The notes under the pieces were generated by a model. It did not search any database, was not told the origin of the DNA, and worked only from the letters and a program-made list of their open reading frames with translations. A stretch of DNA of 64,000 nt from Dehalococcoidia bacterium. Its GTDB lineage: Bacteria > Chloroflexota > Dehalococcoidia > Lucifugimonadales > Lucifugimonadaceae. The DNA lies in NCBI GenBank assembly GCA_014239735.1, contig JAAZYI010000014.1:1-64000 (forward strand). The letters are read 5' to 3'. Positions 2,249 to 54,722 of this stretch are shown one piece after another. The translations under genes and the position numbers were made by a program. Numbering within the stretch: the stretch's first letter is position 1; the number at the start of each line of letters is the position of its first letter.

Positions 2249-2249
2249 T

Positions 2250-35404: not shown

Positions 35405-36167
35405 ACTTTTTTTTAAGAATTAAAGAGATATTCTGCCCATTGCTTTCTTGGCCATAGAAGATGTATTTCTTATAAATTTTAGTTACTAGATTGTTATAAG
35501 AAGACAAATTAGAAGTAAAAAATTTATTGTGCATTAATCTTCTTAAAATTTTGGATAGGGTAGATTTTTTGTTTAAGTAAAATAATTCTTCAATATCAAA
35601 ATAATTACTTACATGCTCTTTTAGCAATGCTAGGTCATAATGTCTGAAATGTTTTTTAGGAATTGGTTGCCTTACTACACTTGGCACAGTTATTAAAAAA
35701 ACTCCATCATCGCTAATAATTTTACTTAAACCTTTTAATATCTATGGCAACTCTTTTTCATCAATATGTTCAAGAACTTCAGTCGCAATAATGAAATCAA
35801 ATTCAATATTTGGCAGTTCATATAAATTATTGAAAAATATTTTATTATCTTCTTTTTCATTGCAAAAAAGTTTTGCAAAAGTTAAGGCTTTATTGGATAT
35901 ATCTACTCCATAAATTTCTGAATCATAGTTATTAATAATTTCTTTTGTTAGCCTTCCATCTCCACATCCAAAATCTAGAATTTTTTTTGGAGATTTTGCA
36001 TTAATTTTTTTTAATATGAATTCTATTAGAGTTAAGTAATCGAATGAATGGAACCATGATATTCCAAAATTCCAGGTTCCATTATTTAATTGAGGAAGAT
36101 GATGATATGGAAAATTATAATCTTCATCCTGATAAAATTGAGGTACTTTTTTTGATTCTTGGTTCAT
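35397..36167 (-). pseudogene. Class I SAM-dependent methyltransferase interrupted by an in-frame TAG
   Basis: From 36167 the frame encodes a SAM-binding core (KKILDFGCGDGRLTKEII, IYGVDISNKAL, FDFIIATEVLEHIDEKELP), then meets TAG at 35742-35744. It continues in the same frame with ILKGLSKIISDDGVFLITVP and RHYDLALLKEHVSNYF to 35397. The total of 256 codons matches a complete methyltransferase (CAG or CAA to TAG would explain the stop). It is either a recent pseudogene or carries a sequencing error. It lies on the same strand as, and just downstream of, the phosphorus cluster, so a role in methylating a surface head group is possible but unproven. Confidence 0.85.
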
Positions 36168-36233: not shown

Positions 36234-36309
36234 GGGCGATTAGCTCAGCTGGTAGAGCATCTCGTTTACACCGAGAGGGTCGGGGGTTCGAGCCCCTCAT
36301 CGCCCACCA
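36234..36309 (+). tRNA. tRNA-Val (anticodon TAC)
   Basis: A 76-base cloverleaf with acceptor GGGCGAT/ATCGCCC, D stem GCTC/GAGC, anticodon stem TCTCG/CGAGA with loop TTTACAC, T stem GGGGG/CCCCT with loop TTCGAGC (including one G-U pair), and encoded CCA. A TATAAT at 36208-36213 could be its -10 box. It marks one edge of the AT-rich phosphorus cluster. Confidence 0.95.
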
Positions 36310-36331: not shown

Positions 36332-37831
36332 TTATTTGATTAATATAAATTCTTCGATATTTCTATCATTCCAAAATTGTAAATTCTCTTTGTCACTAAT
36401 ATTTATATCTAGACATTCTCTTATTAGAGTAGAAATTATATTTATGTTGGTTTCAATATTATGGGTTTCATCAATACAATTATTTGGACTATAAATAAAA
36501 TTTATTGTTGAAAATAATTCTTCATAAATTTCATCAGACATTGGTTCATTATTATTCATTGAGTATTCACCAGAAACATTATAAACGCCGTGATCAGACT
36601 GTATGATTATGATTGAGTTTTTTGAATTCAAAATAATTTTTTCTACAGTTTTTATAATAGTGTTATTTACATACTTTAATTGGTTAATAAAATTTTTTGT
36701 TTCCTTTTCATTCCATGGGTCACTTAAATTTTCAGCAAATGTGTTATAAGGATTTGCATTAAGATTTTTTGTTCCATCTTCATTGAAAATAAATGGAGGA
36801 TGTGGCGGCCTGCTATAAAAGTAAGTCCAAGTTTTATCTTCTTTATCTGATATTTTAATTAGATTAGAAACATTTTCTTGAAAATATTTTTGATTTTTAT
36901 TTATCCAAAAATTATGAATTGGTATAGATGAATCATCAATAATCCTCAACATACTTGTCCTGACAAATACTCTTGAAAAATCTCCAAAAAATGATGAATA
37001 AAAATTTTTCACATCATTTGTTGAGATTTCATATATTTTATACCCAAGCTTTCTTGCCACATCAGCTTCAACAGATTTATTAAATGATTTTTGAGTTTCA
37101 TTCATATATATTTTTTCATCAGCACTAGCGTTATAGAAATGTTTCATATTAATAGTTGATGGCAAAGAATATCTTGTTCTTATGTAATTTGCTTTTAAAT
37201 TTTCTTTCCTAAATCCAAGAGAGTTTAGTTGGCTTAAAAAATATTTATTATCAAAATCAAATCTTGTTTCTAGAATATCTTCTGTTGGATACATGTCTAA
37301 TACAATATGGTAAATATCTGGCAGATCTAAGTTCACACTATTTTCTATGTTCAAATTCTTACTAATAGGATTTGTTGGTTTCAATTTAAAAATTAATACT
37401 TGAGATGAATTAATAAGAATCAATACAGATAATGATATAGATAAAATGAATAGAAATTTTTTATAATCATAATTTTTTCTATAAGTTCTTAAAATGAGTA
37501 ATAAGGAAAGAATAGATATTATTGGCACTAAGTATCTATGTCTTGAAATTTCTTTTACTATGGCAATTTCATTAAACAAATCATAAAAATATCCATATGA
37601 GAAGAATGCAAATAATAAGATAGTTGAAAGAAAAGATGCTTTATTTAACTCCCTAAAAATTAAGAAAAAGATAGAAAAAACTAAGCATGAGAATATAGAT
37701 ACTGAAAAAAATAACGAAAAAATTTCAATAGCCTTTATTCCTTCTCCAAGATTTGAAGTATAGAGAAATAATATGAAAAATAGACCTAATATTATAGGAT
37801 TAACAAGATGTAAAAAACGTAAAATTTTCAT
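36332..37831 (-). CDS. Membrane-anchored alkaline-phosphatase/sulfatase-superfamily protein
   Basis: The 499 residues begin with about five membrane helices (INPIILGLFFILFLYTS, FSCLVFSIFFLIF and others), followed by an extracytoplasmic catalytic-like domain. This has the superfamily metal positions in PDIYHIVLDMYPTEDIL, SRPPHPPFIF and IIIIQSDHGVYN. The plan resembles LPS or teichoic-acid transferases such as phosphoethanolamine or glycerophosphate transferases. The nucleophile is not obvious (T or S near MYPTEDIL or RYSLPSTINM). It is the last gene of the cluster, 14 bases after the nucleotidyltransferase. I infer transfer or trimming of a phospho-group on the surface polymer. Confidence 0.7.
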   Translation of the reverse strand: MKILRFLHLVNPIILGLFFILFLYTSNLGEGIKAIEIFSLFFSVSIFSCLVFSIFFLIFRELNKASFLSTILLFAFFSYGYFYDLFNEIAIVKEISRHRYLVPIISILSLLLILRTYRKNYDYKKFLFILSISLSVLILINSSQVLIFKLKPTNPISKNLNIENSVNLDLPDIYHIVLDMYPTEDILETRFDFDNKYFLSQLNSLGFRKENLKANYIRTRYSLPSTINMKHFYNASADEKIYMNETQKSFNKSVEADVARKLGYKIYEISTNDVKNFYSSFFGDFSRVFVRTSMLRIIDDSSIPIHNFWINKNQKYFQENVSNLIKISDKEDKTWTYFYSRPPHPPFIFNEDGTKNLNANPYNTFAENLSDPWNEKETKNFINQLKYVNNTIIKTVEKIILNSKNSIIIIQSDHGVYNVSGEYSMNNNEPMSDEIYEELFSTINFIYSPNNCIDETHNIETNINIISTLIRECLDINISDKENLQFWNDRNIEEFILIK

Positions 37832-37845
37832 TTAATTATCTTAAC

Positions 37846-38613
37846 TTATTGACTATAAAAAGTATTTAATTCTCCGCTTTTTTCAAGAGAGTTATAATTA
37901 ATTAAGTCACTCTCAGTATCTATTTCAAGCCATCCACCATTGACTAATGATGCTTTAACTTCAATTTTCTTTTCAATTAAGATTTGGATGAAATCCGTCA
38001 TATAAAGATTTTGGTAGCTTATTGAGCTATTACCTTTCAATTTTTGATATATTTCATGAATTTTATTTAATGAATCTTTTCTAAATTTTATAAGGCCTGT
38101 ATATTGCCCATTTATATCATCATAATTTGTAGTTTTATTACCTAACTCCAAAATATTTAGATCTTTATCAAATTTCATTGTTTCTGCATCAGATAATGGA
38201 TCTTCGAATCTTTTTAACCATAAATTTTTCCAGTTTAAATCGACCATAATTGATACTTCTGCATCAGCGTTTATTAACTTTTCTAAATTTTTCTTTTCAT
38301 AAATTATGTCTCCATATGAAACTATCAAATCTTCAGAATTAGAAATAAATAAATCTTTAGCAGTAAACATTGAGAAAACCATATTTGTTGATTCAAAATC
38401 CTTGTTATGGAATTTTTTTAAACCATAATTATTCAATAATTCTGATTTGAAGCCAGAAACAATGTTTATATCATTAATATTGTTATTTTTAAGAACTTCA
38501 ATTTGTCTTTCAAGTAACGATTTTCCAAAAAGATTTACCAAACATTTAGGTTTATTTTTAGATGCTTTGCCTAACCTTTTTCCTTGGCCTGCAGCCAAAA
38601 TTAATGCTTTCAT
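37846..38613 (-). CDS. Nucleotidyltransferase, CTP:phosphoglutamine cytidylyltransferase-like (Cj1416 type)
   Basis: The 255 residues form a sugar-nucleotidyltransferase fold, with the NTP loop AAGQGKRLGKASKNKPKCL, LLERQIEVLKN, and metal Asp in SYGDIIYEKK. A C-terminal GGWLEIDTESDLINY is shared with PntC-like phosphonate cytidylyltransferases. It overlaps the amidotransferase gene by four bases. In C. jejuni a similar triad (Cj1418, Cj1417, Cj1416) phosphorylates glutamine on the amide, activates it with CTP and releases CDP-phosphoramidate. Context makes that role the best guess; a choline- or HEP-phosphate cytidylyltransferase is the alternative. Confidence 0.75.
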   Translation of the reverse strand: MKALILAAGQGKRLGKASKNKPKCLVNLFGKSLLERQIEVLKNNNINDINIVSGFKSELLNNYGLKKFHNKDFESTNMVFSMFTAKDLFISNSEDLIVSYGDIIYEKKNLEKLINADAEVSIMVDLNWKNLWLKRFEDPLSDAETMKFDKDLNILELGNKTTNYDDINGQYTGLIKFRKDSLNKIHEIYQKLKGNSSISYQNLYMTDFIQILIEKKIEVKASLVNGGWLEIDTESDLINYNSLEKSGELNTFYSQ

Positions 38614-39239
38614 ATTTTAAAAAAACTTTTTATTAATTCTAAATCTAGTGTATTAAATGGAGCTTCTCTTTCAGGATGCCACATTATCCCCATTAAATTA
38701 TTTTTCTTATCAGAAAATGCTTCTACATTGCCTTCTAGGTCTGTTGCAAGTATTTCGAAATTATTTGGTAAATCTTTCTCATCAATTCCATATTCATGGA
38801 AACTATTAACTTTGTTTGGAAAAGAGAATTTCGAAGAATTTTTTATTTCATGCGGGATGGCAACGTGGTCATTAACTTTTTTGATTTTTCCACCAAAAAA
38901 ATTATTTAAAAATTGCATCCCCCGACAAACACCTAAAATTGGAATCTTTTTTGTTATGCAGTAATTAATTAATGTTTTTTCAAACGCATCTCTTCTTTTT
39001 TGGCCATTGTTATAATCCTTATTTTTTTCATCTAAGAATTCTCCGCCACTGAGAATAACTCCGTCTAAATTAAAGCTATCAATAGCCTTATCATTAATTA
39101 TCTTTGAGTTATTTGGCAATAGAATTTGAATCATGCCAATCTCTGAAAAAAGTTCTGACCAATTTTGATCAAGTTGATCTCTATATTCTCCATATTCTTT
39201 TATAAAATGTACTCTTTGTGTGATTCCAATTTTTATCAT
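38610..39239 (-). CDS. Class I glutamine-amidotransferase-fold hydrolase, Cj1417-like
   Basis: The 209-residue protein has the peptidase C26 triad: Cys near residue 104 in GVCRGMQFLNNFFGG and His-x-Glu near 187 in WHPEREAPF. The N-terminus IGITQRVHFIKEYGEYRDQL followed by DQNWSELF closely fits the Cj1417 group, which hydrolyses gamma-glutamyl-CDP-amidate to glutamate and cytidine diphosphoramidate. Neighbours on both sides are the matching kinase and cytidylyltransferase, with one- and four-base overlaps. A generic gamma-glutamyl-GABA hydrolase is the alternative, but the gene context argues against it. Confidence 0.8.
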   Translation of the reverse strand: MIKIGITQRVHFIKEYGEYRDQLDQNWSELFSEIGMIQILLPNNSKIINDKAIDSFNLDGVILSGGEFLDEKNKDYNNGQKRRDAFEKTLINYCITKKIPILGVCRGMQFLNNFFGGKIKKVNDHVAIPHEIKNSSKFSFPNKVNSFHEYGIDEKDLPNNFEILATDLEGNVEAFSDKKNNLMGIMWHPEREAPFNTLDLELIKSFFKI

Positions 39240-42200
39240 TATACTTTTCTTATTATTCTATTTGTACAGTTAAGTTCTATAATTTTATATGATTTTAATT
39301 TTTCGAATAAGGCTTCTCCTACACCAATAGCAGAAGGAATTCCAATTTCTGCACACCTTATAGCCATATGCGAATTTGCACCACCATATTTAGTTATGAT
39401 CCCTCCAATATCATGACTGAAAAGCCAATCAAAACCTGGGTCTGCATTCTCAATAAGAATAATTTTATTAATTATATATTTTGGTGAAGTTAAATTATCT
39501 GTGATCTCAGAAATTATTTTTTTATTTGTTAGGAAATTTGGTTGTGCATCATTATATTCAAAGAAATAAAAATCATTTTGATGGTCAATTAGATCTGGAA
39601 GATTAGTTAATTTAGTGTAGGTAAATTTATTTTTATTTTCGCTAATTATCTTTTTTAATGATTCTAAATCCTTATCTTTTTCATATTTTAGTATGTCTTT
39701 GTATTCAATGAATTTAATATCATTAAGAGAAATATTTTGAGATGCACACCAATTTTCAAGAATATCTATAACTTGACTTATATTTTTCGTAAACTCAAAT
39801 TTTACTCTCTCCCTCTCTTGTATGGACCTTCTTAAGTAGTCTTCAAAAGTATCAAAATCAATTCCATTATCTAGTTCTTTTATGGCTTTTTTAATCTCTT
39901 TTTCTTCATTATTTGAGAATCTAAATAATTTATATTTCTTCTGCTTTTTTAATGATGATGATAAATATTTTTGAGGATTTTTCCAGTATGGTTCTGTTGT
40001 TATTTCGTAAGTCCCTGGTCTTAGATGGCCATATTTTTTGATAATGGATGCCATACTAATTTTATTTAAATTTAATTTAATTAAATCTTCTTCGAATTCT
40101 GCAGTAACAGTCTTTATTGATTGAAAAAATTCATTAAATCTTTTATCTGAAATTATTCCTAGCTTTACAAAACTTTTCAAGAATATTGTCGATATAAAAC
40201 CATTCCTGGCAGCATGAGCAAATGGCAATGAGCCATATTCCTTACAATCATCAATTAATTTTATAATTTTTACCAAGTCAGAATCATTTGATTTTTGAAC
40301 TTCTTCTCGTAAATTCTCAAGATGATTAATTTTTGATATATATTCATTAAATTTTACTATTCCGTTAGATGTAATTTTTTTTAACTCTATTTCCAAAATA
40401 CTTATTTCTTTTTCTGTTATCCCATATTTTAATAATCTTTTTTTAGCTTCATATTTGAAATTTGGAATCCAAGATGTGAACGCAATTTCAAATTCAATCT
40501 TGTCAAATAGTTCTTTATTTTCAGAGAGCATTTTTAAATAAGCACAAACTAATTTTTTTGATATTTCTTCAGTAATTTTTTTTGGTATAAAAGAGTTGAA
40601 ACTAAGGCTGCAATCTACGTAAGGTTGCCCAGAAAAAGAAGTTAGAAGAGGATGATTATTAAGTGATTTATATCCAAATTCTTCACGCTGTTTTGCCCAA
40701 ATTTTATCAGTTACTACTTCCCTATAAAGACTGAATGCTAATGGATATGGTTTTGTTCCTATTATTTCAGCTGGATTCCAGTCAGGCATATTTGAATATA
40801 TTAAATTATGATTGAAATTTTTTATTGATAGATCATTTTTGTCTTTATAATTATTAACGTTATTCAATACATTATTTTTAAAAATATCGAAGTTATATTC
40901 ATTGTCGGAATGATCAACAACTATAGGCCTAACCTGAAATATATGTATAATTTTTTCTTTATCGATTGCGAACTCTATATCTAATTTGTCATAAATTAAT
41001 AATGATTCAATTTCTTGAATTGCCTCTAATAAAGGATTAATTTCTTTTAATATTCCCTCTTCTTTTTTAAAATTTAATTTACTTACAACAATATTCCTGT
41101 CTTTCTTAGATGCCCCGGATGTTATTGAATCTGTCTTTCCGCTATCATCAAAATTTATCTTGTAATAAGGCGCTCCAGTATCTAAGTCACAAGTAAAAAC
41201 AACACCAGAAATTTCAACATTTTCAACAAATTCTTGAATTAGCACCTGATCTTTTTGGTTTGATAAATTTTGAGTTTCGTAAGAATCGATAACCTCTTGA
41301 ACTTTACTGGCAATTAAATCTTTTTTTGTGGTGTCTATATTTATAAATGATTTAAATAAGCCAGCTGAAGATTTTTGCCATGAATCTTCTTCTGCTGAGC
41401 TACTTCTAATTACAATTTTTTTATTTGGAAAGTTTTCCTGGATATTATCAATTATTAAACCTTTGCTTTCCTTCCACTCTCTAACGTCAAAAAAATAATT
41501 TTTTCCTATCTTGCATTTAGTAACCATAGGATAAAGTCGATTTAATGATTCTGCTTTTGTGCCTAAAATGAACTTAACTAAATCATTTGGTGAGTTTAAT
41601 TCTGACCAATTACCCTTAACATCAAAAAAATCTAAAGAATAATTTTGATTCTCTAAATATTTGATCAGGTCAATTAATGATTTGCCTTCAATAGAATCTT
41701 TAAGATCAACTATTTTTTTAAATACATTTTTTTTGAGTTTAATCAGGCCCGCAAATTCAACTTCTTGAGATCTATCTTCATTTTTTATATTTATTTTTTC
41801 TGCAATATTTATGTCATGTTCCGATCTATTTTCATATCTGTTTTTCCATAAACTATCTATAGTTATAGAGACTTCTGCATTTGAAGTTGATAATTCCTCT
41901 AAAAATTTTTTCCTAAATAATGTATCCGAATAAGTTATAATCACATCTTTTTCTTCGTAGGGTAATTTGAATAATGAATCTAATATTCCGCCGTCTTTCC
42001 ATTCTTTATTATGAATAATATTTAAAGAAGAAAATTTTTTTTCAACTTGCTCAATTTCGTATCCCCCAACAAAGTAGACTTTATTTAAATTTTTAATTTC
42101 TTTAAAACAATCTAATTGCCATCCAAGCACATTGTTTCTTGAATTTATTTGTTTTAGAGCTGAAGGTATATTACCTGATGATGGGGGGCCAGCTCCTAAA

Positions 42201-42241
42201 ATAACCACGTCTATCTTATTTGAATTTGAGTTTTGGGACAT
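39239..42241 (-). CDS. Nucleotidyltransferase-like domain fused to a PEP-synthase-like glutamine kinase (Cj1418 type)
   Basis: This 1000-residue protein has three parts. Residues 1-230 resemble a nucleotidyltransferase (VVILGAGPPSSGNIPSAL, TYSDTLFRKK, WSELNSPNDLVKFI), with a degenerate NTP loop. Residues about 240-480 are the ATP-binding domain of PEP synthase-type enzymes (VIRSSSAEEDSWQKSSAGLF, LIQEFVENVEISGVVF, IHIFQVRPIVV). The C-terminus is the swivelling phosphohistidine domain with ITKYGGANSHMAIRCAEIGI and the His near 957. There is no PEP/pyruvate barrel, so it is not a PEP synthase. The length after the N-terminal domain fits the C. jejuni L-glutamine kinase Cj1418. The extra N-terminal domain is unusual. 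Confidence 0.8.
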   Translation of the reverse strand: MSQNSNSNKIDVVILGAGPPSSGNIPSALKQINSRNNVLGWQLDCFKEIKNLNKVYFVGGYEIEQVEKKFSSLNIIHNKEWKDGGILDSLFKLPYEEKDVIITYSDTLFRKKFLEELSTSNAEVSITIDSLWKNRYENRSEHDINIAEKINIKNEDRSQEVEFAGLIKLKKNVFKKIVDLKDSIEGKSLIDLIKYLENQNYSLDFFDVKGNWSELNSPNDLVKFILGTKAESLNRLYPMVTKCKIGKNYFFDVREWKESKGLIIDNIQENFPNKKIVIRSSSAEEDSWQKSSAGLFKSFINIDTTKKDLIASKVQEVIDSYETQNLSNQKDQVLIQEFVENVEISGVVFTCDLDTGAPYYKINFDDSGKTDSITSGASKKDRNIVVSKLNFKKEEGILKEINPLLEAIQEIESLLIYDKLDIEFAIDKEKIIHIFQVRPIVVDHSDNEYNFDIFKNNVLNNVNNYKDKNDLSIKNFNHNLIYSNMPDWNPAEIIGTKPYPLAFSLYREVVTDKIWAKQREEFGYKSLNNHPLLTSFSGQPYVDCSLSFNSFIPKKITEEISKKLVCAYLKMLSENKELFDKIEFEIAFTSWIPNFKYEAKKRLLKYGITEKEISILEIELKKITSNGIVKFNEYISKINHLENLREEVQKSNDSDLVKIIKLIDDCKEYGSLPFAHAARNGFISTIFLKSFVKLGIISDKRFNEFFQSIKTVTAEFEEDLIKLNLNKISMASIIKKYGHLRPGTYEITTEPYWKNPQKYLSSSLKKQKKYKLFRFSNNEEKEIKKAIKELDNGIDFDTFEDYLRRSIQERERVKFEFTKNISQVIDILENWCASQNISLNDIKFIEYKDILKYEKDKDLESLKKIISENKNKFTYTKLTNLPDLIDHQNDFYFFEYNDAQPNFLTNKKIISEITDNLTSPKYIINKIILIENADPGFDWLFSHDIGGIITKYGGANSHMAIRCAEIGIPSAIGVGEALFEKLKSYKIIELNCTNRIIRKV

Positions 42242-42242
42242 T

Positions 42243-43361
42243 TTAATTAATTAATTCTTCAATTTGATCACATATTACGTTAACTGATCTGCCAAGATTG
42301 TAGAAATTTTTGGAAATAAATTTTTCAGATTCATTAACTTTTTTTGATGCCAAGATAATTTTCTCTTGAAGACTGCTTTTATCTAATTTTTTTATTTCAT
42401 TAATATTTAATATCTCTCCTATTTCTTCACGCATGGTTATTTCCAGAGGTTTTTCAGAAAGCTTAGTGTAATTTTTATTATTTATTTTAGGAGGAGTGTC
42501 TACGAATAAGATAGGCTTATTATTGATAACATAATATTCGAAAGCAATCCCTGACCAGTCTGTAATTAAAAGTTTAGAATTATTAATAGATTCGATTGAA
42601 TCTGGATTTAAATCTAATTTGAAATTATTTTTTTCTTTAAAATTATTAATAGCATTGTTTAATTTTTTTTTGTCATTTTTAAAACTCATATTATGAGGCC
42701 TAAATGTAACCTTATAATTCAAACTAATTAGTTTAGAAATTAATTCATTTAAGCATGTATTTACAATCGAATTTTTGCCCCACGAAGAAGCAATAAGAAT
42801 TTCATCATTTTTAACCATTTTTTTATTAGTTAGTAATTCATCGAAATTTGAATAACCCGACTCAAATAGCCTTTTCTTTTTTAACGAATACTTTTCTTCT
42901 CTTTCTAAAGTTTCTTTAATTTGATATGGGCCTACACAAAATATTCCATCAAAATTATCAAATGCATTTTCTTCATAAATCATATGCGTGCTCATTGGAG
43001 AGTGATGAACATAAAAATACTTTGAATTCCTCTCTCTTTTCAGCTGCATTGATTGCAAACTTGGAGTGCTCATAACCATTATGTCTACTGAAAGCTTTCT
43101 AAATAGGTATGTCCTTGCAGATTTATCCCCTATGTATATTTTTTTCATATTTTTATTGTTTTCTATATAGAAATTATCATTTTGAGATGAAGTCAAAAAA
43201 GTTACTTTTATGTTTCTATTATCAACAAGTTCTTTAATTAATGGAGATAAGTGTTTAGTAATCCATGGACCCTCAGAATAAAATACCAGCCTTTTCCAAT
43301 CATTTGAAAGAGTAATTGTATGATTTACGTTTTTCCAGGTTTCAAAAAAATCATTTAGCAT
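42243..43361 (-). CDS. CDP-glycerol glycerophosphotransferase-like enzyme
   Basis: The 372-residue protein matches the TagB/TagF family C-terminal pattern: YVHHSPMSTHMIYEENAFDN, FCVGPYQIKETLEREE, ILIASSWGKNSIVN, VTFRPHNMS, and SKLLITDWSGIAFEYYVINN. Family members transfer glycerol or ribitol phosphate from CDP-linked donors to polymers at the inner membrane face. Between a CMP-phosphonate route and a CDP-phosphoramidate route, the donor here may be a phosphonate or an unusual CDP-linked head group. It ends one base before the fused kinase gene. Confidence 0.85.
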   Translation of the reverse strand: MLNDFFETWKNVNHTITLSNDWKRLVFYSEGPWITKHLSPLIKELVDNRNIKVTFLTSSQNDNFYIENNKNMKKIYIGDKSARTYLFRKLSVDIMVMSTPSLQSMQLKRERNSKYFYVHHSPMSTHMIYEENAFDNFDGIFCVGPYQIKETLEREEKYSLKKKRLFESGYSNFDELLTNKKMVKNDEILIASSWGKNSIVNTCLNELISKLISLNYKVTFRPHNMSFKNDKKKLNNAINNFKEKNNFKLDLNPDSIESINNSKLLITDWSGIAFEYYVINNKPILFVDTPPKINNKNYTKLSEKPLEITMREEIGEILNINEIKKLDKSSLQEKIILASKKVNESEKFISKNFYNLGRSVNVICDQIEELIN

Positions 43362-43413
43362 ATTTAGAAATAATATTTATTGAGTTGTATTACTCTGCAA
43401 ATAAATATCATAG

Positions 43414-43701
43414 TTAATCGTTATCATTTAATTTTTTAGAGGTTTCTTTTGATTTATTAAATATTTTTGAAATAAAATCCATTAGCTTTCCATAATATGC
43501 GATGATCCAGATAAACCCAGCTACGACACCTCCAATTATCATCTGAATTACAAATGAGATGTAACCGAAATCGAGATACTCTTCATTCTTGATTGATTTC
43601 TCCTCAATAACTTCATTTAATGTTAAAGCGTAAATTTCATTAGTATTGAAAAAAATCATCAATGATAGAGAGAAAAATGTCAGAAATATTTTTGTGTTCA
43701 T
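43414..43701 (-). CDS. Small secreted or membrane protein, unknown function
   Basis: From the ATG at 43701 there are 95 residues: a signal peptide (IFLTFFSLSLMIFFNTNEIYA), an acidic stretch (NEVIEEKSIKNEEYLDFG), one membrane helix (FVIQMIIGGVVAGFIWIIAY) and a Lys-rich tail. A TTG at 43740 would extend it by 13 residues. Position inside the phosphorus cluster, with 52 and 65 bases to its neighbours, suggests a role in export or assembly of the polymer. The family is not recognised. Confidence 0.6.
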   Translation of the reverse strand: MNTKIFLTFFSLSLMIFFNTNEIYALTLNEVIEEKSIKNEEYLDFGYISFVIQMIIGGVVAGFIWIIAYYGKLMDFISKIFNKSKETSKKLNDND

Positions 43702-43766
43702 ATCAAGGTTAGTATATATATTATTGAAAAATTGTTCCAACTGAAAAAACTAAATTTCTGACCCTT

Positions 43767-44204
43767 CTAGTTAATTCCCTTTTTTAAGTCTGATGATGAA
43801 ACCCCTTCAGTATAAGGAACATCAATAACTTTTCCTCCCCATTCAGACATAGCTAATATAGCACTTTCTCTAGATTTTTTTTGAGCCCCTTGCTTCCAGT
43901 CATCTCCATGCAAAAAATATTCAAATTTAAATTTCTCTAGATACGGAACAAAATCAATACTTTCAATAGGTATAATTCCTGATACTGATTTTAATTCTGC
44001 CAAAACTTTTAATCTTTCTTGAAATGATAATAATGGGTTGCCTTTATAATTTTTCATAGCACTGTCTGTCATTAATCCAATAATTACAGATCCATATTTC
44101 TTTGCTTCATGAAGTATGTTTATGTGCCCATGATGTATTGGGTCTGCGCACATAGTTACAAATGCAAATGGTCTTTTATTATTTTTTATAAATTCTTCTT
44201 TCAT
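43767..44204 (-). CDS. HxGH cytidylyltransferase, probable 2-hydroxyethylphosphonate activator
   Basis: The 145-residue protein has the TagD/Fom1-type nucleotidyltransferase fold: FVTMCADPIHHGHINILHEA with the HxGH motif near residue 23, and a C-terminal SSSDLKKGI in place of the usual ISTT motif. Glycerol-3-phosphate cytidylyltransferases and the N-terminal domain of fosfomycin enzyme Fom1, which makes CMP-HEP, share this fold. It overlaps the phosphonopyruvate decarboxylase gene by four bases, so I favour cytidylylation of hydroxyethylphosphonate; glycerol-3-phosphate is the alternative and would feed the nearby glycerophosphotransferase. Confidence 0.8.
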   Translation of the reverse strand: MKEEFIKNNKRPFAFVTMCADPIHHGHINILHEAKKYGSVIIGLMTDSAMKNYKGNPLLSFQERLKVLAELKSVSGIIPIESIDFVPYLEKFKFEYFLHGDDWKQGAQKKSRESAILAMSEWGGKVIDVPYTEGVSSSDLKKGIN

Positions 44205-44761
44205 AATATTTTTGATTTAAAATTATTTGTAATTTCAACTGGTAAGTGACTCACTCTTGAAATATCATGCGTATCTTCCATAGAGACATGAATCCTATAT
44301 AAAGAAAGATTATTAATCGAAATATTAATTTCATCTAAATCTCTTTCTTGAAATTGGGGAAAGTCTTTAACTAATTCATATCCTGATGCACTAGCTATCC
44401 TACAAATATCTATATCCTTAGATATTGAAGACTGACTCCCTGTTGATTGATAAGAGTAGTTATCAAGGACTATATGAGTTAAGTTTTTAGGAGAGTAATA
44501 TCCAGTGCATGCAACTGAACCTAAATTCATTAATAGGCTTCCATCTCCATCAAAAATTACCACATTATTTTTGGGATTAGAGATTGCTATTCCAGTTGCA
44601 AAAGAAGTTGCAAGACCCATAGATCCAATCATATAAAAATTAGCTTTCCGATCTTTATATGAATAAATTTCTCTAGAAATCATTCCGGTGGTAGATATAA
44701 CAAGATCGTCATCTTCTAATTTATTCATTATTAATTTTATAGCTTCATTTCTAGTGATCAT
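44201..44761 (-). CDS. Phosphonopyruvate decarboxylase, C-terminal (TPP-binding) subunit
   Basis: The 186 residues form the pyrophosphate-binding half of a ThDP enzyme: FYMIGSMGLATSFATGIAIS, VVIFDGDGSLLMNLGSVACT, then LTHIVLDNYSYQSTGSQ, i.e. the GDG...N cofactor motif in the form seen in phosphonopyruvate decarboxylase. With the gene just upstream it makes one decarboxylase in two chains, like the ComD/ComE type. It converts phosphonopyruvate to phosphonoacetaldehyde, pulling the unfavourable mutase reaction forward. It overlaps the other half by one base. Confidence 0.9.
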   Translation of the reverse strand: MITRNEAIKLIMNKLEDDDLVISTTGMISREIYSYKDRKANFYMIGSMGLATSFATGIAISNPKNNVVIFDGDGSLLMNLGSVACTGYYSPKNLTHIVLDNYSYQSTGSQSSISKDIDICRIASASGYELVKDFPQFQERDLDEINISINNLSLYRIHVSMEDTHDISRVSHLPVEITNNFKSKIL

Positions 44762-45276
44762 TAAAGAATTACTCCTGACTTAATGATTAAAGCTTTGATA
44801 TTTGGTGATTGATCATAAGAGCCTAATTCTGAAATTAGTTTTTTTTCTATTTGTTTAGAGTCCTTTTCGGAATCTTCAAAAGTACAGATCGGGATGCCTA
44901 GCATTTTAAAATATTCCTCAGTCTTCTCCCCCATTATCCAATGTTCTGGAGCATCATTTGGCTTTCCTCCATATCCTCGCCAGCCAATCATTAGTAGGAC
45001 CGGAATATTATAAAGAAGATTAAAAGATGTTAAAGGATTGATAATGTTTCCTATGCCCGAATTTTGCATTAATACACAACAATTTTTATTTGATATAGAG
45101 ATTCCTGATGCTAGGCCAAGTGCAGTATCTTCTCTATTTGCTCGGTAATAATTTATTTCTACATCCTCATCAACTTTATTAAATAATTCTCCAAAAGTTG
45201 AATCGGGGACTCCTGCTACATTATAAAAAGAGTGATTCTTTAATAATTTAATAAAATTATCAGAACTAATACTCAA
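44761..45276 (-). CDS. Phosphonopyruvate decarboxylase, N-terminal subunit
   Basis: The 171 residues form the pyrimidine-binding half: FYNVAGVPDSTFGELFNKV, NREDTALGLASGISISNK with the catalytic Glu region, and LMQNSGIGNIINPLTSFNLL then VLLMIGWRGYGG and APEHWIMG. These last stretches are characteristic of phosphonopyruvate decarboxylases. Most bacteria encode a single chain of about 380 residues; here the two chains total 357, with a one-base overlap. The 5' end overlaps the PEP mutase gene by 11 bases, so the three are cotranslated. Confidence 0.9.
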   Translation of the reverse strand: MSISSDNFIKLLKNHSFYNVAGVPDSTFGELFNKVDEDVEINYYRANREDTALGLASGISISNKNCCVLMQNSGIGNIINPLTSFNLLYNIPVLLMIGWRGYGGKPNDAPEHWIMGEKTEEYFKMLGIPICTFEDSEKDSKQIEKKLISELGSYDQSPNIKALIIKSGVIL

Positions 45277-46927
45277 TGCCTAGTTCCTCTTCTGCCATTC
45301 TAAAATCTTCCTTGGTATGCAGTTCAATCCATCCGCCGTCAAATTCCATAGAATTTATTTTTATTCCTTTTTTGATCATGAAATTTAATACATCTATTAG
45401 TAATCCTTCTGAGGAACCCATGTCGCTCATCATTGAAAATGATTGCTTTAAATCCTTTATTCCTTTTGGTGAAAAATAAGCTATGCCAATAAATTCAGCT
45501 TCTGCAGATTCGATATCAAGATTTTTTCCAAGTCTTGAAATTTGATGTAATTCTGACATTTTCAGTTGGCGTCTATTGCTTGAGGATTTTTTTTCAGAAT
45601 ATGAAACTAACTCTAACTTCTTATCAACATTATGTTTGTGATATCTATAAGAAGAATCTGCAGCAATGACGATATCTTCTTTGCTAGAAATTAGACTAGA
45701 AATAATTTTTTCATTAAATAATATATCTCCATATGTTATTAGGGCATGATCATTTAAATATTTATCAGCTGACATAATGGAATGGAGTAATTTTTTTTCC
45801 TCTGGAAAATTAGATTCAATAATCTTGGCGCCCGAATTTTGAATATCTTCAAATTTATCTAAATCATTAACAGTCATAACAATATTTTCTATCCCAACTT
45901 TCTTTAAAGTTTCGATTTGATGGTATGCAAGAGGTTTACCGGAAATATTTACAAGCGATCTAGGCTTGTCATCATCTGATTGATTTCCAGCAGACGCTAT
46001 TATTGCAGATATATTTGGTGTTTTTTCTGAATCCCTCTCAAGTATTTTGTCATAACCAACAGCAGAAAAAAGTTCTTTGACTGAAGCTATATTTTCATCT
46101 GATTCTAAACTTCTTCCAGATTCAGAAATCAATTTTGCTGTATCAAGCATAGATTGGAATGATGCCCTGCTCAAATGATTTGCGTGTATTATTATATCTA
46201 CCCCGAGATCTATCAATTCTTTATCAGAAATTGAATTATAAGTAGTTGGCACAGCTATTAAATAAGGCCTTCTTCCAAGTTTTGAGCATAGTGCTTCATA
46301 TTTCGGAATGAATTCAATTATTTCATCAGGAGTTTTTAGTTTTGAGTGGATCATAATTCCGTCTATGCCAGAATTAATATACTTTTCAGTTCTAGACATG
46401 GTCTCTTCCATTCCTAAACCTGCAATCAAGCTTTCAAGCCTAGCAATTATTAAAAAGTCAGAAGTAGATTTAGTATTCATTCCAATTAATAATTTTTTAG
46501 AAAAAGTATCAGGATCTTCCATGCCTGCCCCAACAGTTCCTCCGAAACTATTCCTCTTAGGAAATATTTTATCTTCAACAATTACTGCAGAAACCCCTTG
46601 ATTTTCTAATCTTTTAACTAGGAATCTAAAATTATCTTCGTCGCCTCCAGTATCTCCATCAACTATCATTGGCTTCGTTGTTACATTTAATATTTCCTCA
46701 ATAGTGTGAAGCCTGCTTTCATTGCTAACAATAGATGCATCCGGTAATCCTTTGCTTGCAGAATCAGTAAGGCTGCTTTCCCATACAAAATCAAATTCTG
46801 ACTTTTCTACAACTATTCCACTAAGTCCACTGTGAGCTTCTAATCCCACAGCATTCCCTTTTTTTTCTAAAATTTTTTTTAACGAAGAAATCCTGTCTCC
46901 AGGAAGTCTTTTTGCTTCGAAAGTCAT
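45266..46927 (-). CDS. PEP mutase fused to a C-terminal nucleotidyltransferase
   Basis: Residues 1 to about 290 are PEP phosphomutase, which forms the C-P bond of phosphonopyruvate. The diagnostic motif EDKIFPKRNSFGG is intact, with IVDGDTGGDEDNF and RLESLIAGLGMEE. Residues about 310-553 are a MobA/PntC-like nucleotidyltransferase (AIIASAGNQSDDDKPRSLV, ITYGDILFNEK, DGGWIELHTKEDF), although the LxxGxG loop is changed to ASAGNQ. Such domains cytidylylate phosphonates. The gene probably begins the cluster: 92 gene-free bases separate it from the upstream reductase. Confidence 0.93.
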   Translation of the reverse strand: MTFEAKRLPGDRISSLKKILEKKGNAVGLEAHSGLSGIVVEKSEFDFVWESSLTDSASKGLPDASIVSNESRLHTIEEILNVTTKPMIVDGDTGGDEDNFRFLVKRLENQGVSAVIVEDKIFPKRNSFGGTVGAGMEDPDTFSKKLLIGMNTKSTSDFLIIARLESLIAGLGMEETMSRTEKYINSGIDGIMIHSKLKTPDEIIEFIPKYEALCSKLGRRPYLIAVPTTYNSISDKELIDLGVDIIIHANHLSRASFQSMLDTAKLISESGRSLESDENIASVKELFSAVGYDKILERDSEKTPNISAIIASAGNQSDDDKPRSLVNISGKPLAYHQIETLKKVGIENIVMTVNDLDKFEDIQNSGAKIIESNFPEEKKLLHSIMSADKYLNDHALITYGDILFNEKIISSLISSKEDIVIAADSSYRYHKHNVDKKLELVSYSEKKSSSNRRQLKMSELHQISRLGKNLDIESAEAEFIGIAYFSPKGIKDLKQSFSMMSDMGSSEGLLIDVLNFMIKKGIKINSMEFDGGWIELHTKEDFRMAEEELGIEY

Positions 46928-48173: not shown

Positions 48174-49235
48174 TTATTCGTCTTCGGCTCTTTCAACCAA
48201 GGCCTTCATGTAGCCTATTGCAAATGCAGTTGCTGTTCTATTAGCTACGCCATATTTATCTTCTTTATGATGCCAATGAGGATCTTTTGAGCCTCGATCT
48301 TCAAGTGAGCCCATTGTTGGATTATGATCAGGTATTATTATCCCATCAAAATCAACTTCTTTTAGTACTTTTACAATCTTATACATATCCATATAGCCAT
48401 CGTCCAAAAAGGTTTCTTTAAAATGAGGAAGTGGCTTATCAACATTCCTAAAATGAATCTTGAATAATTTATTTTGATCTCCAAAATATTTTGCCATTTG
48501 GGTAACATTTTTTTCTGTCGTATCTCCACCTTCTAGCCAAGTTCCAGCACACAAACAAATTCCTATGTTAGGGCTATCTGCAATTTCTAAAGCTCTTTGA
48601 TACCCACTAAATGTACTAAATATGCAACGAGGAACTCCGCCCAGTTTTAGTCCAGGAGGATCGTCAGGATGAATTCCTACTTTTACTCCTGACTCTTCTA
48701 TAGTTGGTTTTACGGCTTTTATATAATATTCGAAATTTTCCCATAATTCCTCTTCAGAATATTCTCTTGAATGGGTTAATTTCCCTTTTGAAATAGTCCT
48801 TGGCCCTTTTCTATCGTTAATGTAAAAAGTTTCAGCATCTACATCAAATGCTCTTCCAAGAGCCCCTCCTCTTGTTGGTTCTTTTGCTGTACTCCAAACT
48901 CCACTAGCCATGTGTGCGTAAGTAGAATAAAAAATTCCTGCTTTACTTAAATCTTTAATATAATTTTTATAATCTTCAATTACCCGATTTCTATCGTTTA
49001 AGTTTAAAACTAAAGAATCATGGTTATGTATACTTGAATTTCCAAATCCATATATTTTTAGATTGTGAGGCTCAAATATCTCTCTCTGTTTCATAAAAAA
49101 GTCATAATTTGCCTCTCCTCTTCCAGCAAATAAAGTTACATAATCTAGTCCTAATTCTTTTATAAACTCTATATCTTCCTCTGAAGGATTTGGGGTTACT
49201 TGTGCTGCAATTTTTATTTTCGATTTATTTGTCAT
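48174..49235 (-). CDS. Mannonate dehydratase-like TIM-barrel enzyme
   Basis: The 353 residues resemble UxuA, which dehydrates D-mannonate to 2-keto-3-deoxygluconate, or a related sugar isomerase. Visible metal and substrate segments are GVKVGIHPDDPPGLKLGGVP, NIGICLCAGTWLEGG, IHFRNVDKPLPHFKETF, and GIIIPDHNPTMGS. The N-terminus KIAAQVTPNPSEEDIEFIKE is typical. It is two bases upstream of the reductase gene on the same strand; the functional link to phosphonate synthesis is not obvious and may be only operonic. Confidence 0.8.
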   Translation of the reverse strand: MTNKSKIKIAAQVTPNPSEEDIEFIKELGLDYVTLFAGRGEANYDFFMKQREIFEPHNLKIYGFGNSSIHNHDSLVLNLNDRNRVIEDYKNYIKDLSKAGIFYSTYAHMASGVWSTAKEPTRGGALGRAFDVDAETFYINDRKGPRTISKGKLTHSREYSEEELWENFEYYIKAVKPTIEESGVKVGIHPDDPPGLKLGGVPRCIFSTFSGYQRALEIADSPNIGICLCAGTWLEGGDTTEKNVTQMAKYFGDQNKLFKIHFRNVDKPLPHFKETFLDDGYMDMYKIVKVLKEVDFDGIIIPDHNPTMGSLEDRGSKDPHWHHKEDKYGVANRTATAFAIGYMKALVERAEDE

Positions 49236-51081: not shown

Positions 51082-51945
51082 ATGCATCCATTTAATTATT
51101 ATGCTCCAGAGACAGTTAATGAAGCTATTGAAATACTAAATAAGTATGGAGATAAAGCTAAATGTCTTGCAGGCGGAACCGATGTTCTTGTTCAAGCTCG
51201 AGGGGAAAAGTTTGAACTTGATGCCATCGTCGATATAAAAAAGATTCCTCAGCTCACTAAACTAGAATGGACTGATTCTCATTTGATTGTTGGGGCGGCC
51301 ACTCCATGCCATGTATTGTATGAAGATTCTAAAGTTTGCGAAGTTTTTCCTGGAATAGTTGATTCAGCTTTTCTAATAGGAGGCATTCAAATCCAATCAA
51401 GGGCCAGCTTGGGAGGGAATTTATGCAATGCTTCTCCAAGCGCTGATGCAATTTGCTCTTTAATTGTTCATGAAGTTATCTGTGAAATTGCTGGACCTAA
51501 AGGAACAAGAGAAATTCCAGTTGAAGATATGTGCACAGGACCTGGCAAGAATGCATTAACAAATGGTGAATTTTTAGTTTCTTTGAAGATCCCACTAAAA
51601 AATAGTGAATTTTCTGCTTCTTATGAAAGATTTATTCCTAGGAATGAGATGGATATAGCAGTTGCCGCAGTTGCCTCTTCTATTGAATTAAGTAATGGGA
51701 AAGTATCATCTTGCAGAGTTGCATTAGCTGCTGTAGGACCAACACCAATATTTGCAAAAGAAGCTTCAGAATTATTAGTTGGCAAAGAACCAACAGATGA
51801 GAATATAAGAAAAGTTTCTGAAAAAGCTAAAGATATTGCTAGCCCCATTGCTGATATGAGAGGAACAATCGAACATAGAAAAGATTTAATTGAAGTTCTT
51901 ACTAGAAGAACTATAGAAAAAGCGCTAGAAAGAGCAGGAGGATAA
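51082..51945 (+). CDS. Molybdenum hydroxylase, FAD-binding (medium) subunit
   Basis: The medium subunit of a three-chain xanthine dehydrogenase-family enzyme binds FAD and passes electrons onward. The 287 residues have the FAD loops CLAGGTDVLVQARG and GGIQIQSRASLGGNLCNASP, then YERFIPRNEMDIAVAAVASS. A GGAGG-like site (GCGGAGG) precedes the ATG. It is followed after one base by the iron-sulphur subunit and then the catalytic subunit, the usual M-S-L order. The large subunit motif shows it is not a classical CO dehydrogenase. Confidence 0.93.
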   Translation: MHPFNYYAPETVNEAIEILNKYGDKAKCLAGGTDVLVQARGEKFELDAIVDIKKIPQLTKLEWTDSHLIVGAATPCHVLYEDSKVCEVFPGIVDSAFLIGGIQIQSRASLGGNLCNASPSADAICSLIVHEVICEIAGPKGTREIPVEDMCTGPGKNALTNGEFLVSLKIPLKNSEFSASYERFIPRNEMDIAVAAVASSIELSNGKVSSCRVALAAVGPTPIFAKEASELLVGKEPTDENIRKVSEKAKDIASPIADMRGTIEHRKDLIEVLTRRTIEKALERAGG

Positions 51946-51946
51946 A

Positions 51947-52432
51947 ATGGCTGAAAATAAAGTAAAAAAAGTTACAGTAAATACAACTATAAATGGTCAA
52001 GAGATGGATATACTTATTGATCCATATGTGAGCCTTTTAGAGACATTACGAGAAGTAGTCGGGATAACAGGAACTAAAGAAGGGTGTAATGATGGGAACT
52101 GTGGAGCTTGTACTGTGAACCTAGATGGAAGAATTGTAGATTCCTGTCTGGTTTTAGGCGTAGAAGCAGAAGGTAAAAATATAGAAACAGTTGAAGGAAT
52201 GGCAAGCCCTGATGGACTTCATCCACTTCAGCAAGCATTTTTGGAAGAGGCTGCTCTACAATGTGGAATTTGCACTCCAGGCTTCCTTGTTTCAGCTAAA
52301 GCCTTACTAGATAACGAGCCTGATCCTTCTGAAGAAAGAATAAGACACTGGCTAGCAGGGAATTTATGCAGATGTACTGGTTATGACAAAATTGTAAAAG
52401 CAGTAACTAAGGCTTCTAAAGAATCAAAGTAG
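51947..52432 (+). CDS. Molybdenum hydroxylase, [2Fe-2S] (small) subunit
   Basis: The 161-residue protein carries two [2Fe-2S] clusters. The plant-ferredoxin-type N-terminal site is GCNDGNCGACTVNL with a fourth Cys in VDSCLVLG. The C-terminal helical site is QCGICTPGFLVSAKA and NLCRCTGYDK. It follows the FAD subunit after one base and precedes the catalytic subunit by 16 bases. Confidence 0.96.
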   Translation: MAENKVKKVTVNTTINGQEMDILIDPYVSLLETLREVVGITGTKEGCNDGNCGACTVNLDGRIVDSCLVLGVEAEGKNIETVEGMASPDGLHPLQQAFLEEAALQCGICTPGFLVSAKALLDNEPDPSEERIRHWLAGNLCRCTGYDKIVKAVTKASKESK

Positions 52433-52448
52433 AGAAAGGGCCAAGAAG

Positions 52449-54722
52449 ATGGTATCAACTCCAGAAAATAAAAATTATAAAGTAATTGGGACAAGACCCA
52501 TAAGGCATGATGGTTATGACAAAGTTACTGGCAGGGCTCAGTACGGTGCAGATATTAAATTGCCAGGCATGTTAATAGGAGCAGTTGCTAGGAGCCCTTA
52601 TGCACATGCAAAAATTAAGTCTATAGACACTTCTGAAGCTGAAAAGATGGACGGAGTTTTTGCGGTTATGACTGCAAAAGATTTGCCGAGACTGGGTGAT
52701 ATAGTTCGAGGAAACTCTGAAGAGTCTGGATCGGAGAGACATTTAAGTGAAAATGTTATGGCTTTTGAAAAAGTGCTTTATAAAGGCCATGTAGTAGCAG
52801 GAGTTGCTGCAAAAGATCAAAATACTGCATTTGAAGCAGTAAAAAAAATAAAAGTAGATTACGAAGTATTGAAGCCTGTAATTAATGTCGATCAGGCAAT
52901 GGCAAAAGATGCTTCCATATTGCATGAAGATTATCTTGGAGATCATCTAGGAAAGAAAGTTAAAAATACAAATATCGCTGCGCATGTGAGACATGAAAGT
53001 GGAAATATTGATGATGGTTTTGAGAAAGCAGATTTAGTTATAGAAAAAGAAGTAGATATGCAAACTGTTCATCAAGGATATTTGGAACCTCACACTGGTA
53101 CAGCAGTTTGGGATGAAGAAGATAGAGTCAAGATATGGACAAGCACCCAAGGATCTTTTGCTGTAAGAGATAGTGTATCTAAAGTTCTAGATTTAGATGT
53201 ATCTAGAATCAAGGTTACTCCTATGGAAATAGGAGGAGGATTTGGTGGAAAGATTCCTATTTACTTGGAACCTATTTCTGCAGTTTTATCTAAAAAAACT
53301 AGAAGACCTGTAAAAACAGTTATGAGTCGGACTGATGTTTTTGATGCTTCAGGTCCCGGCCCTGGAGGAAAAGTAAAAGTAAAAATTGGAATTGATTCAG
53401 AAGGAAAGATTTTAGCAGCTTATGCTGACATAAGACTTGAAGCAGGAGCTTACCCTGAAGCTTTCATTGAAGCCGCAGCTAAGTGTGTATTTTCTTGTTA
53501 TGATGTTCCGTCAATGAAAATTGATGCATATGATGTTGTAGTAAATAAGCCGAGTTCTGCTCCTTATAGAGCACCAGCTTCTCCTCAAGTTGCATTTGCT
53601 ACTGAAACTGTTGTTGATGAAATTTGTAATATCAAAGGTTATGATCCGATTGATTTTAGACTTAAGAATGTTGCGGAGAAAGGCACTAGGACTGCCTTAG
53701 GTCCGAAGTACAGAACTATCGGATTAAAAGAATGTCTAGAAGCCGCAAAAGATTCTGATCATTGGAAATCAGATTTGGACTCAAATCCTAAATCAGGTAA
53801 AAAAAGAGGTAGAGGTATAGCAAGTGGATACTGGTTTAATATAGGTTTTAAGTCTTCGGTTAACCTTTCGCTTAATCCAGATGGAAAAGTAGCGCTTACT
53901 GAAGGATCAACTGATATTGGAGGATCAAGAGCTTCTATTGCTATGCAGGCAGCAGAAGTTTTGGGGATTCCTGCTGAGGATGTAAGACCTTCAGTTGTAG
54001 ATACAGACAGTATAGGAATTACTGATGTAACAGGAGGAAGTCGTACAACTTATGCTACCGGATATGCTGCATACAATGCTGCTCATAAATTAATAGAACA
54101 GATTATCGAAAAGTCTGCTTTGAAATGGGATATTAGTAAAGATCAAATTGAATATTCTGATGGAGTAGTAAAATCAAAAACCGACTCTGAACTAAAGATG
54201 ACACTAAAGGAGATTGCTGATGATCCTCCTGGAGGACCTATAGTTTCGTCGGCATCAGTTGACTTAGAAGAAGCTGGTGGTGGTTTTGCAGTACATATTG
54301 CTGATTTAGAAATTGATGAAGAAACAGGCAAGACTGATGTTGTAAATTATACTGCTATTCAAGATGTCGGGAAGGCAATTCACCCATCTTATGTTGAAGG
54401 CCAGATGCAAGGTGGAGCTGCTCAAGGAATAGGTTGGGCTTTAAATGAGGAATACTTTATGAGTGATGATGGAATTATGCTTAATTCAAGCTATCTAGAT
54501 TATAGGATGCCTACATCTCTAGATCTCCCAATGATAAATACTATTATGATTGAAGTTCCAAGTGAGGAACATCCTTATGGGGTTAGAGGAGTAGGAGAGC
54601 CTCCTATTGTTCCACCAGTTCCAGCTATTGGTAATGCAATTAATGATGCTTTAGGATTGAGACTGCTTAACACTCCAATGAAGCCTTCTAGAATTACAGA
54701 GGCTTTGAAAAGAAAAAAATAA
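52449..54722 (+). CDS. Molybdenum hydroxylase, molybdopterin-binding (large) subunit
   Basis: The 757 residues form the catalytic chain of an XDH-family hydroxylase. Cofactor and active-site segments include EIGGGFGGKIPIYLEP, the substrate-pocket loop SAPYRAPASPQ, GSRASIAMQAAEVLG and the catalytic Glu in GVRGVGEPPIVPP. The pocket loop differs from the AYxCSFR of form I CO dehydrogenase and the AYRGAGR of form II, so the substrate is another carbon compound, perhaps an aldehyde or heterocycle. A MoaD-like gene follows after seven bases, tying cofactor supply to this enzyme. Confidence 0.92.
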   Translation: MVSTPENKNYKVIGTRPIRHDGYDKVTGRAQYGADIKLPGMLIGAVARSPYAHAKIKSIDTSEAEKMDGVFAVMTAKDLPRLGDIVRGNSEESGSERHLSENVMAFEKVLYKGHVVAGVAAKDQNTAFEAVKKIKVDYEVLKPVINVDQAMAKDASILHEDYLGDHLGKKVKNTNIAAHVRHESGNIDDGFEKADLVIEKEVDMQTVHQGYLEPHTGTAVWDEEDRVKIWTSTQGSFAVRDSVSKVLDLDVSRIKVTPMEIGGGFGGKIPIYLEPISAVLSKKTRRPVKTVMSRTDVFDASGPGPGGKVKVKIGIDSEGKILAAYADIRLEAGAYPEAFIEAAAKCVFSCYDVPSMKIDAYDVVVNKPSSAPYRAPASPQVAFATETVVDEICNIKGYDPIDFRLKNVAEKGTRTALGPKYRTIGLKECLEAAKDSDHWKSDLDSNPKSGKKRGRGIASGYWFNIGFKSSVNLSLNPDGKVALTEGSTDIGGSRASIAMQAAEVLGIPAEDVRPSVVDTDSIGITDVTGGSRTTYATGYAAYNAAHKLIEQIIEKSALKWDISKDQIEYSDGVVKSKTDSELKMTLKEIADDPPGGPIVSSASVDLEEAGGGFAVHIADLEIDEETGKTDVVNYTAIQDVGKAIHPSYVEGQMQGGAAQGIGWALNEEYFMSDDGIMLNSSYLDYRMPTSLDLPMINTIMIEVPSEEHPYGVRGVGEPPIVPPVPAIGNAINDALGLRLLNTPMKPSRITEALKRKK

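Follow-up and report, generated by a model that had tools for sequence, protein, structure and literature searches.

The closest described relatives of the locus examined here belong to separate pathways. Phosphoramidate surface groups are so far known mainly from Campylobacter capsules, and the O-methyl phosphoramidate pathway of Campylobacter jejuni is encoded by Cj1415-Cj1422. Phosphonates, which carry a carbon-phosphorus (P-C) bond, are handled by the phosphonyl tailoring loci of Rice et al. 2019 (PMC6697681), by Fom1, a fusion of a cytidylyltransferase and phosphoenolpyruvate (PEP) mutase that turns hydroxyethylphosphonate into its cytidine monophosphate conjugate, CMP-hydroxyethylphosphonate (PMC6697681), and by marine methylphosphonate synthase (mpnS) loci, whose known neighbors are arylsulfatase-like and nucleotidyltransferase genes (PMC9381506). 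Marine polysaccharides are known to carry hydroxyethyl- and methylphosphonate as esters (PMC9381506). Here we describe a gene run in which homologues of phosphorus-nitrogen (P-N) and P-C biosynthesis genes stand together. It lies in a 64,000-nucleotide stretch of an uncultured, probably marine Dehalococcoidia bacterium (GenBank assembly GCA_014239735.1, contig JAAZYI010000014.1, positions 1 to 64,000), called the window below. An annotation made from the letters of this stretch (the sequence-only reading) had proposed a single operon placing both kinds of group on a surface glycan or teichoic-like polymer. Loci and genomes of the comparison carry our L and G numbers, and window genes are named by their lower coordinate.

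Results

Twelve co-directional genes run along the minus strand from 49235 to 36332, and a transfer RNA gene, tRNA-Val, comes after the last of them (Table 1). The run reaches past the PEP mutase gene with which the sequence-only reading had begun it, to 48171 and perhaps to 49235. Its largest spacing is 92 bases, between dehydrogenase 47020 and the PEP mutase, and most others are small (-11 to +52 bases from the PEP mutase through 36332). The same run was found in two further assemblies, L042 and L091, so it is not an accident of assembly. Promoter-like matches fell below the shuffled level and terminator-like matches lay near it, which makes both uninformative on transcription; the genes may form one transcript. 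We read the run as the means of making two phosphorus groups, both cytidylyl-activated, that would decorate a surface glycan, with cytidine diphosphate (CDP)-amidate used directly, an interpretation for which we consider the case evenly poised.

Table 1. Features of the gene run and its tRNA edge, in the order of transcription of the run
Coordinates	Strand	Feature	Evidence
48174..49235	-	UxuA-like TIM-barrel gene; opens the co-directional run	PF03786; kept beside operon in L139-L143, L091
47020..48171	-	Iron-containing alcohol dehydrogenase, probable phosphonoacetaldehyde reductase (to 2-hydroxyethylphosphonate)	PF00465; TIGR03405
45266..46927	-	PEP mutase fused to nucleoside triphosphate (NTP)-transferase domain, nucleotide loop degenerate	PF13714, TIGR02320, EDKIFPKRNS
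44761..45276	-	Phosphonopyruvate decarboxylase, N-terminal half	TIGR03297, 123 bits
44201..44761	-	Phosphonopyruvate decarboxylase, C-terminal half	TIGR03297, 179 bits
43767..44204	-	Fom1-type cytidylyltransferase, probable CMP-hydroxyethylphosphonate synthase	PF01467; 5x3d match
43414..43740	-	Small membrane protein; travels with 42243	Homologues in L042, L091, L143
42243..43361	-	CDP-glycerol:glycerophosphotransferase-like enzyme, candidate transferase	PF04464, E 7.8e-8
39239..42241	-	Glutamine-kinase homologue, 1000 amino acids, N-terminal pseudo-cytidylyltransferase domain at about residues 1-220	NF004508; model
38610..39239	-	Gamma-glutamyl-CDP-amidate hydrolase homologue	NF045546; residue alignment
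37846..38613	-	Phosphoglutamine-cytidylyltransferase homologue, LicC-like, nucleotide loop intact	PF12804; alignments
36332..37831	-	Membrane protein, alkaline-phosphatase-superfamily (EptC/YejM/LtaS-like) domain; candidate outer-face phosphotransferase or hydrolase	Fold matches
36234..36309	+	tRNA-Val(TAC), fixed edge of variable slot	ARAGORN, Rfam; at slot in L139-L143, L091

The genes 39239, 38610, and 37846 had been assigned to the families of Cj1418, Cj1417, and Cj1416, and profile scores together with a comparison of triads from the Campylobacter phylum bear this out. The kinase scored 884 bits against NF004508/PRK05849 (cut-off 501) in a profile search, where the PEP synthase models reached at most 52.8 bits and rifamycin phosphotransferase 16.9 bits, and so it does not group with the rifampin phosphotransferases or PEP synthases, the outcome that the sequence-only reading had named as fatal to it. 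The modeled kinase part shares the rifampin phosphotransferase fold, as expected for the superfamily. By its scores the hydrolase is a divergent member of the NF045546 family (149 bits, next family 63, curated cut-off 250). The comparison set held 397 genomes from the phylum of a Helicobacteraceae bin, in which the hydrolase was found at an expectation value (E) of <= 1e-30 in 72 genomes, 58 of them above the curated cut-off. The order 1418-1417-1416 was the same in all 14 loci read, with methyltransferase genes preceding the triad in 13 and the 3'-kinase detected in 9, an arrangement that we take to agree with C. jejuni Cj1420-Cj1415. Identity between the window and this phylum was 32-39% for the kinase, 32-40% for the hydrolase, and 39-46% for the cytidylyltransferase.

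The likeness to the C. jejuni pathway thus covers the three triad families in identical, overlapping order; it does not extend to the full pathway. An APS-type kinase (PF01583), as expected of the CDP-amidate 3'-kinase, gave no match in the window genome, which is 89% complete (the control search was positive in 11 of 14 genomes), and family searches found no methyltransferase of the Cj1419/1420 type or any other inside the cassette. The window further differs from C. jejuni in the N-terminal domain added to its kinase, in the PF04464 gene beside the triad, and in the adjoining PEP mutase.

The phosphonate genes were placed directly upstream of the triad by the sequence-only reading, and coordinates, strand, and families of the PEP mutase, decarboxylase, cytidylyltransferase, and PF04464 genes agree with it. 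The PEP mutase carries the EDKxxxxxNS motif and has PF13714 and TIGR02320 as its best families (TIGR02320 at 294 bits, slightly under the 319.6 cut-off); the loop of its fused NTP-transferase domain varies among genus homologues. The phosphonopyruvate decarboxylase is divided over two genes. The 43767 protein matched the cytidylyltransferase domain of Fom1 (5x3d) at E 1.4e-36 with 56 of 133 residues identical, the next-best solved nucleotidyltransferase structure reaching only 5e-16, and the best NCBIfam model for the dehydrogenase was Phn_Fe-ADH TIGR03405 (173 bits, cut-off 424). These two genes make hydroxyethylphosphonate the likely product of the P-C branch. Methylphosphonate synthase consumes hydroxyethylphosphonate, and two genus relatives carry that enzyme in the same locus, which supports the prediction. 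Unlike in Fom1, the 43767 enzyme stands alone and the PEP mutase is joined to another, degenerate NTP-transferase domain. The locus shares with the phosphonyl tailoring loci (PMC6697681) a PEP mutase-PF12804 fusion, a PF01467 gene close by, and the logic of surface decoration; it differs in its P-N branch, none being described there in the literature found, and in a predicted hydroxyethyl- rather than aminoethylphosphonate.

A Kiritimatiellae bin (L077) holds a second pairing of P-C and P-N genes. Its P-C half comprises, on one strand, a cytidylyltransferase-PEP mutase fusion in the order of Fom1, a phosphonopyruvate decarboxylase, and an iron alcohol dehydrogenase. Further along the same strand lie an ABC-2 permease, an ATPase with a Wzt C-terminal domain, an N-fused glutamine kinase, and a hydrolase, and the contig stops before any cytidylyltransferase position could be read. 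This pairing is unrelated to that of the window and independent of it, and the Wzm/Wzt-type exporter between its two halves favors a surface glycan. No other PEP mutase was found near a P-N locus among the approximately 106 examined, and a TIGR02320 match at E <= 1e-40 anywhere in the genome was present in 4 of 50 P-N genomes, one of the four being weak. A third candidate pairing, L161, was dropped when its EDKxxxxxNS match proved to have fallen by chance in an unrelated protein. The sequence-only reading knew of no described system that pairs phosphonate with phosphoramidate synthesis. Our literature search, which left most subscription journals outside its scope, likewise found no such pairing and no P-N type lacking the 3'-kinase, a weak indication of novelty. 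Each half is already known; for the combination and the kinase-less type, no paper was found.

Relative to the Campylobacter enzyme, the window kinase has about 220 additional N-terminal residues. They form, in a model with a predicted local distance difference test (pLDDT) score of 89.8, an NTP-transferase fold like that of LicC and PntC and are related to the 37846 family by profile comparison (E 1.5e-42). R13, K23, and D232 are invariant in the 37846 family and are not conserved across 53 N-domains, the last position being Asn in 69%. Given the loss of the nucleotide-loop Arg and Lys and the frequent Asn in place of the last metal Asp, the N-domain is probably a pseudo-cytidylyltransferase.

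Kinases with this domain mark a recurrent gene content. Among 104 P-N loci (its 80 genome loci are the closest to the query, so the counts give no population estimate, and some contigs are short), the CDP-amidate 3'-kinase was present in 4 of 56 N-fused loci versus 36 of 48 loci without the N-domain, methyltransferases in 3 of 56 versus 35 of 48, and PF04464 in 27 of 56 versus none of 48. The 3'-kinase and PF04464 never co-occurred, and PF04464 lay on the same strand within 200 bases of the triad in 17 of its 27 loci. Fisher tests of the split were run on 89 loci. In the kinase tree a fully supported clade of 50 rows, with one kinase-bearing exception, includes the window; the split mostly tracks this one clade, and independent-pair tests had too few pairs for significance. 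No common alternative transferase emerged among the N-fused loci without PF04464. As a gene-content pattern, then, a P-N type without the 3'-kinase exists. We tentatively extend this to a second, widespread type in which unmethylated phosphoramidate would be transferred straight from CDP-amidate by PF04464-type enzymes and which, in the window's lineage, would decorate one surface glycan together with hydroxyethylphosphonate to give a mixed P-C/P-N polymer, although we doubt more than we trust this larger proposal.

Discussion

The proposed route has two branches. In the P-C branch, PEP mutase, phosphonopyruvate decarboxylase, and the iron alcohol dehydrogenase would yield 2-hydroxyethylphosphonate, which the 43767 enzyme would activate as CMP-hydroxyethylphosphonate. 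In the P-N branch, the 39239 kinase would phosphorylate the glutamine amide, 37846 would make CDP-glutamine, and 38610 would hydrolyze this to cytidine diphosphoramidate. Unlike in Campylobacter, there would be no 3'-phosphorylated donor and no O-methylation; the CDP-amidate would itself be the donor, the likeliest transferase being the PF04464 enzyme 42243, and on the outer face 36332, a membrane protein, may have a part in moving or trimming groups. A surface role is favored by the small gaps, the ATP-binding cassette (ABC) glycan exporter in L077, and the resemblance of 36332 to EptC, LtaS, and YejM. The last of these is a matter of fold: 36332 has no Pfam match, its model is of low confidence (pLDDT 58), and Foldseek and VIA matches at Z 14-16 point alike to EptC, YejM, LtaS, and sulfatases. 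The two groups may share a polymer acceptor, possibly with a teichoic-like backbone.

Several observations weigh against this reading. The hydrolase falls below its equivalog cut-off, no glycosyltransferase was found inside the run, and the absence of the 3'-kinase is not certain in a genome that is 89% complete. The closest homologue of 42243, 60% identical, stands by a phosphonate operon without the triad in G001, and the enzyme may therefore serve either branch, including phosphonate alone; similarly, a 36332-like gene in G007 adjoins PEP mutase without the triad. The coupling is also not general, given that only two independent lineages pair P-N genes with PEP mutase among the approximately 106 loci.

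The genus relatives bear on whether the two branches belong together at all. PEP mutase was detected in 7 of 9 other genus genomes and the triad hydrolase in none of the 9, all of which are incomplete. The tRNA-Val gene directly follows 43767 in L139, L140, and L141, where the slot is empty; in L142 and L143 (the latter without 43767) a methylphosphonate synthase precedes the tRNA (match to the synthase 6b9s, E 4e-162), and in the window and L091 the slot holds the P-N cassette. The window thus resembles the marine mpnS loci through its relatives, which have methylphosphonate synthase in the equivalent slot, and departs from them in that mpnS was not found in its genome and the slot is taken by the cassette. 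These alternating contents, a cassette guanine-plus-cytosine (G+C) content of 26.1% versus 33-34% in the flanks, and mosaicism within the cassette (between L042 and L091, identity is 95% for the kinase and 63% for the cytidylyltransferase) would be expected if the phosphonate operon were the genus core, the slot took any arriving surface-chemistry cassette, and the P-N and P-C products ended on different molecules. That is a serious possibility, though we hold it unlikely. In two relatives the slot holds an enzyme that tailors phosphonate, and the pairing persists even where the operon alleles have diverged; the unrelated L077 has it too, together with an exporter. The kinases of the window and L091 are 77% identical and several of their phosphonate genes just 50-64%, and by these comparisons parts of cassette and operon recombine while the pairing persists. 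Triad dN/dS ratios between the window and L042/L091 were about 0.10-0.19 (dN 0.11-0.26, dS 0.7-1.6; rough values, with dS near or above 1), which indicates purifying selection.

Transfer across phyla was considered for L091, labeled Gammaproteobacteria SP4045, and rejected: its flanks are 81-89% identical to those of the window and the best PheT match in its bin is 29%, and the contig very probably comes from the window's genus and was mis-binned. L042, labeled Neomarinimicrobiota MED589, is close to L091 in most genes and has no informative flank; it is likely mis-binned from the same genus. A search of the window for a second copy of the tRNA-Val 3' end, the trace expected of site-specific integration there, found none, and we claim no such insertion.

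It is improbable, in our view, that the P-N genes have drifted to a product other than phosphoramidate, with the kinase acting on another amide and the hydrolase on another gamma-glutamyl bond. The subthreshold hydrolase, the low kinase identity to the Campylobacter phylum, and the missing 3'-kinase and methyltransferases would fit such drift, but the triad stays together in many phyla, the phosphohistidine site His958 of the kinase and Cys105, His188, and Glu190 of the hydrolase are invariant in alignments, and the nucleotide loop of the cytidylyltransferase is intact. That the cluster makes a secreted small molecule, for instance an antimetabolite, in place of a surface decoration is very improbable: fosfomycin and other antibiotics are likewise products of PEP mutase and Fom1-like enzymes (PMC6697681), but the run is without Fom3, HppE, or any other fosfomycin tailoring gene and without a peptide-ligase gene, its PF04464 enzyme and its EptC/LtaS/YejM-like protein speak for polymer chemistry, and L077 has a glycan exporter.

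If surface decoration by both groups is correct, the pairing predicts P-N groups on marine polysaccharides that already bear hydroxyethyl- and methylphosphonate, where they could have effects on phosphorus cycling, on grazing, or on recognition by phages. The kinase-less type, if true, would change the annotation of P-N loci and the product predicted for them.

Additional observations

Relatives of the kinase are encoded at more than 560 sites across the genome collection, with several oceanic lineages among their carriers, and none appeared in the viral-contig scan. The phage record MT837632 (a 9.5-kb fecal 'Bacteriophage sp.') encodes at 673-3009 a protein of the glutamine-kinase family with 33% identity, either a phage gene or bacterial contamination. 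P-N triads are borne on plasmids, some of them conjugative, of Vibrio alfacsensis, Pseudohalocynthiibacter, Azospirillum, Agrobacterium, and others (L035-L041), and the Agrobacterium vitis copy adjoins a CDP-alcohol phosphatidyltransferase gene.

In the genus, L156 (G007 C13) is a second, divergent phosphonate cluster that holds, besides PEP mutase and the decarboxylase halves, a methylphosphonate-synthase-like gene and genes resembling 36332 and 37846. By tRNA-Val, the window has a methyltransferase gene at 35420-36167 with one in-frame stop, through decay or sequencing error; its homologue is intact (265 amino acids) in L142 and L143. Elsewhere in the window, a second PF04464 (glycerophosphotransferase-like) gene lies at 13565-15052, far from the cluster, and three genes at 51082-54722 resemble an aerobic CO/xanthine dehydrogenase-type set (FAD, 2Fe-2S, and large subunits).

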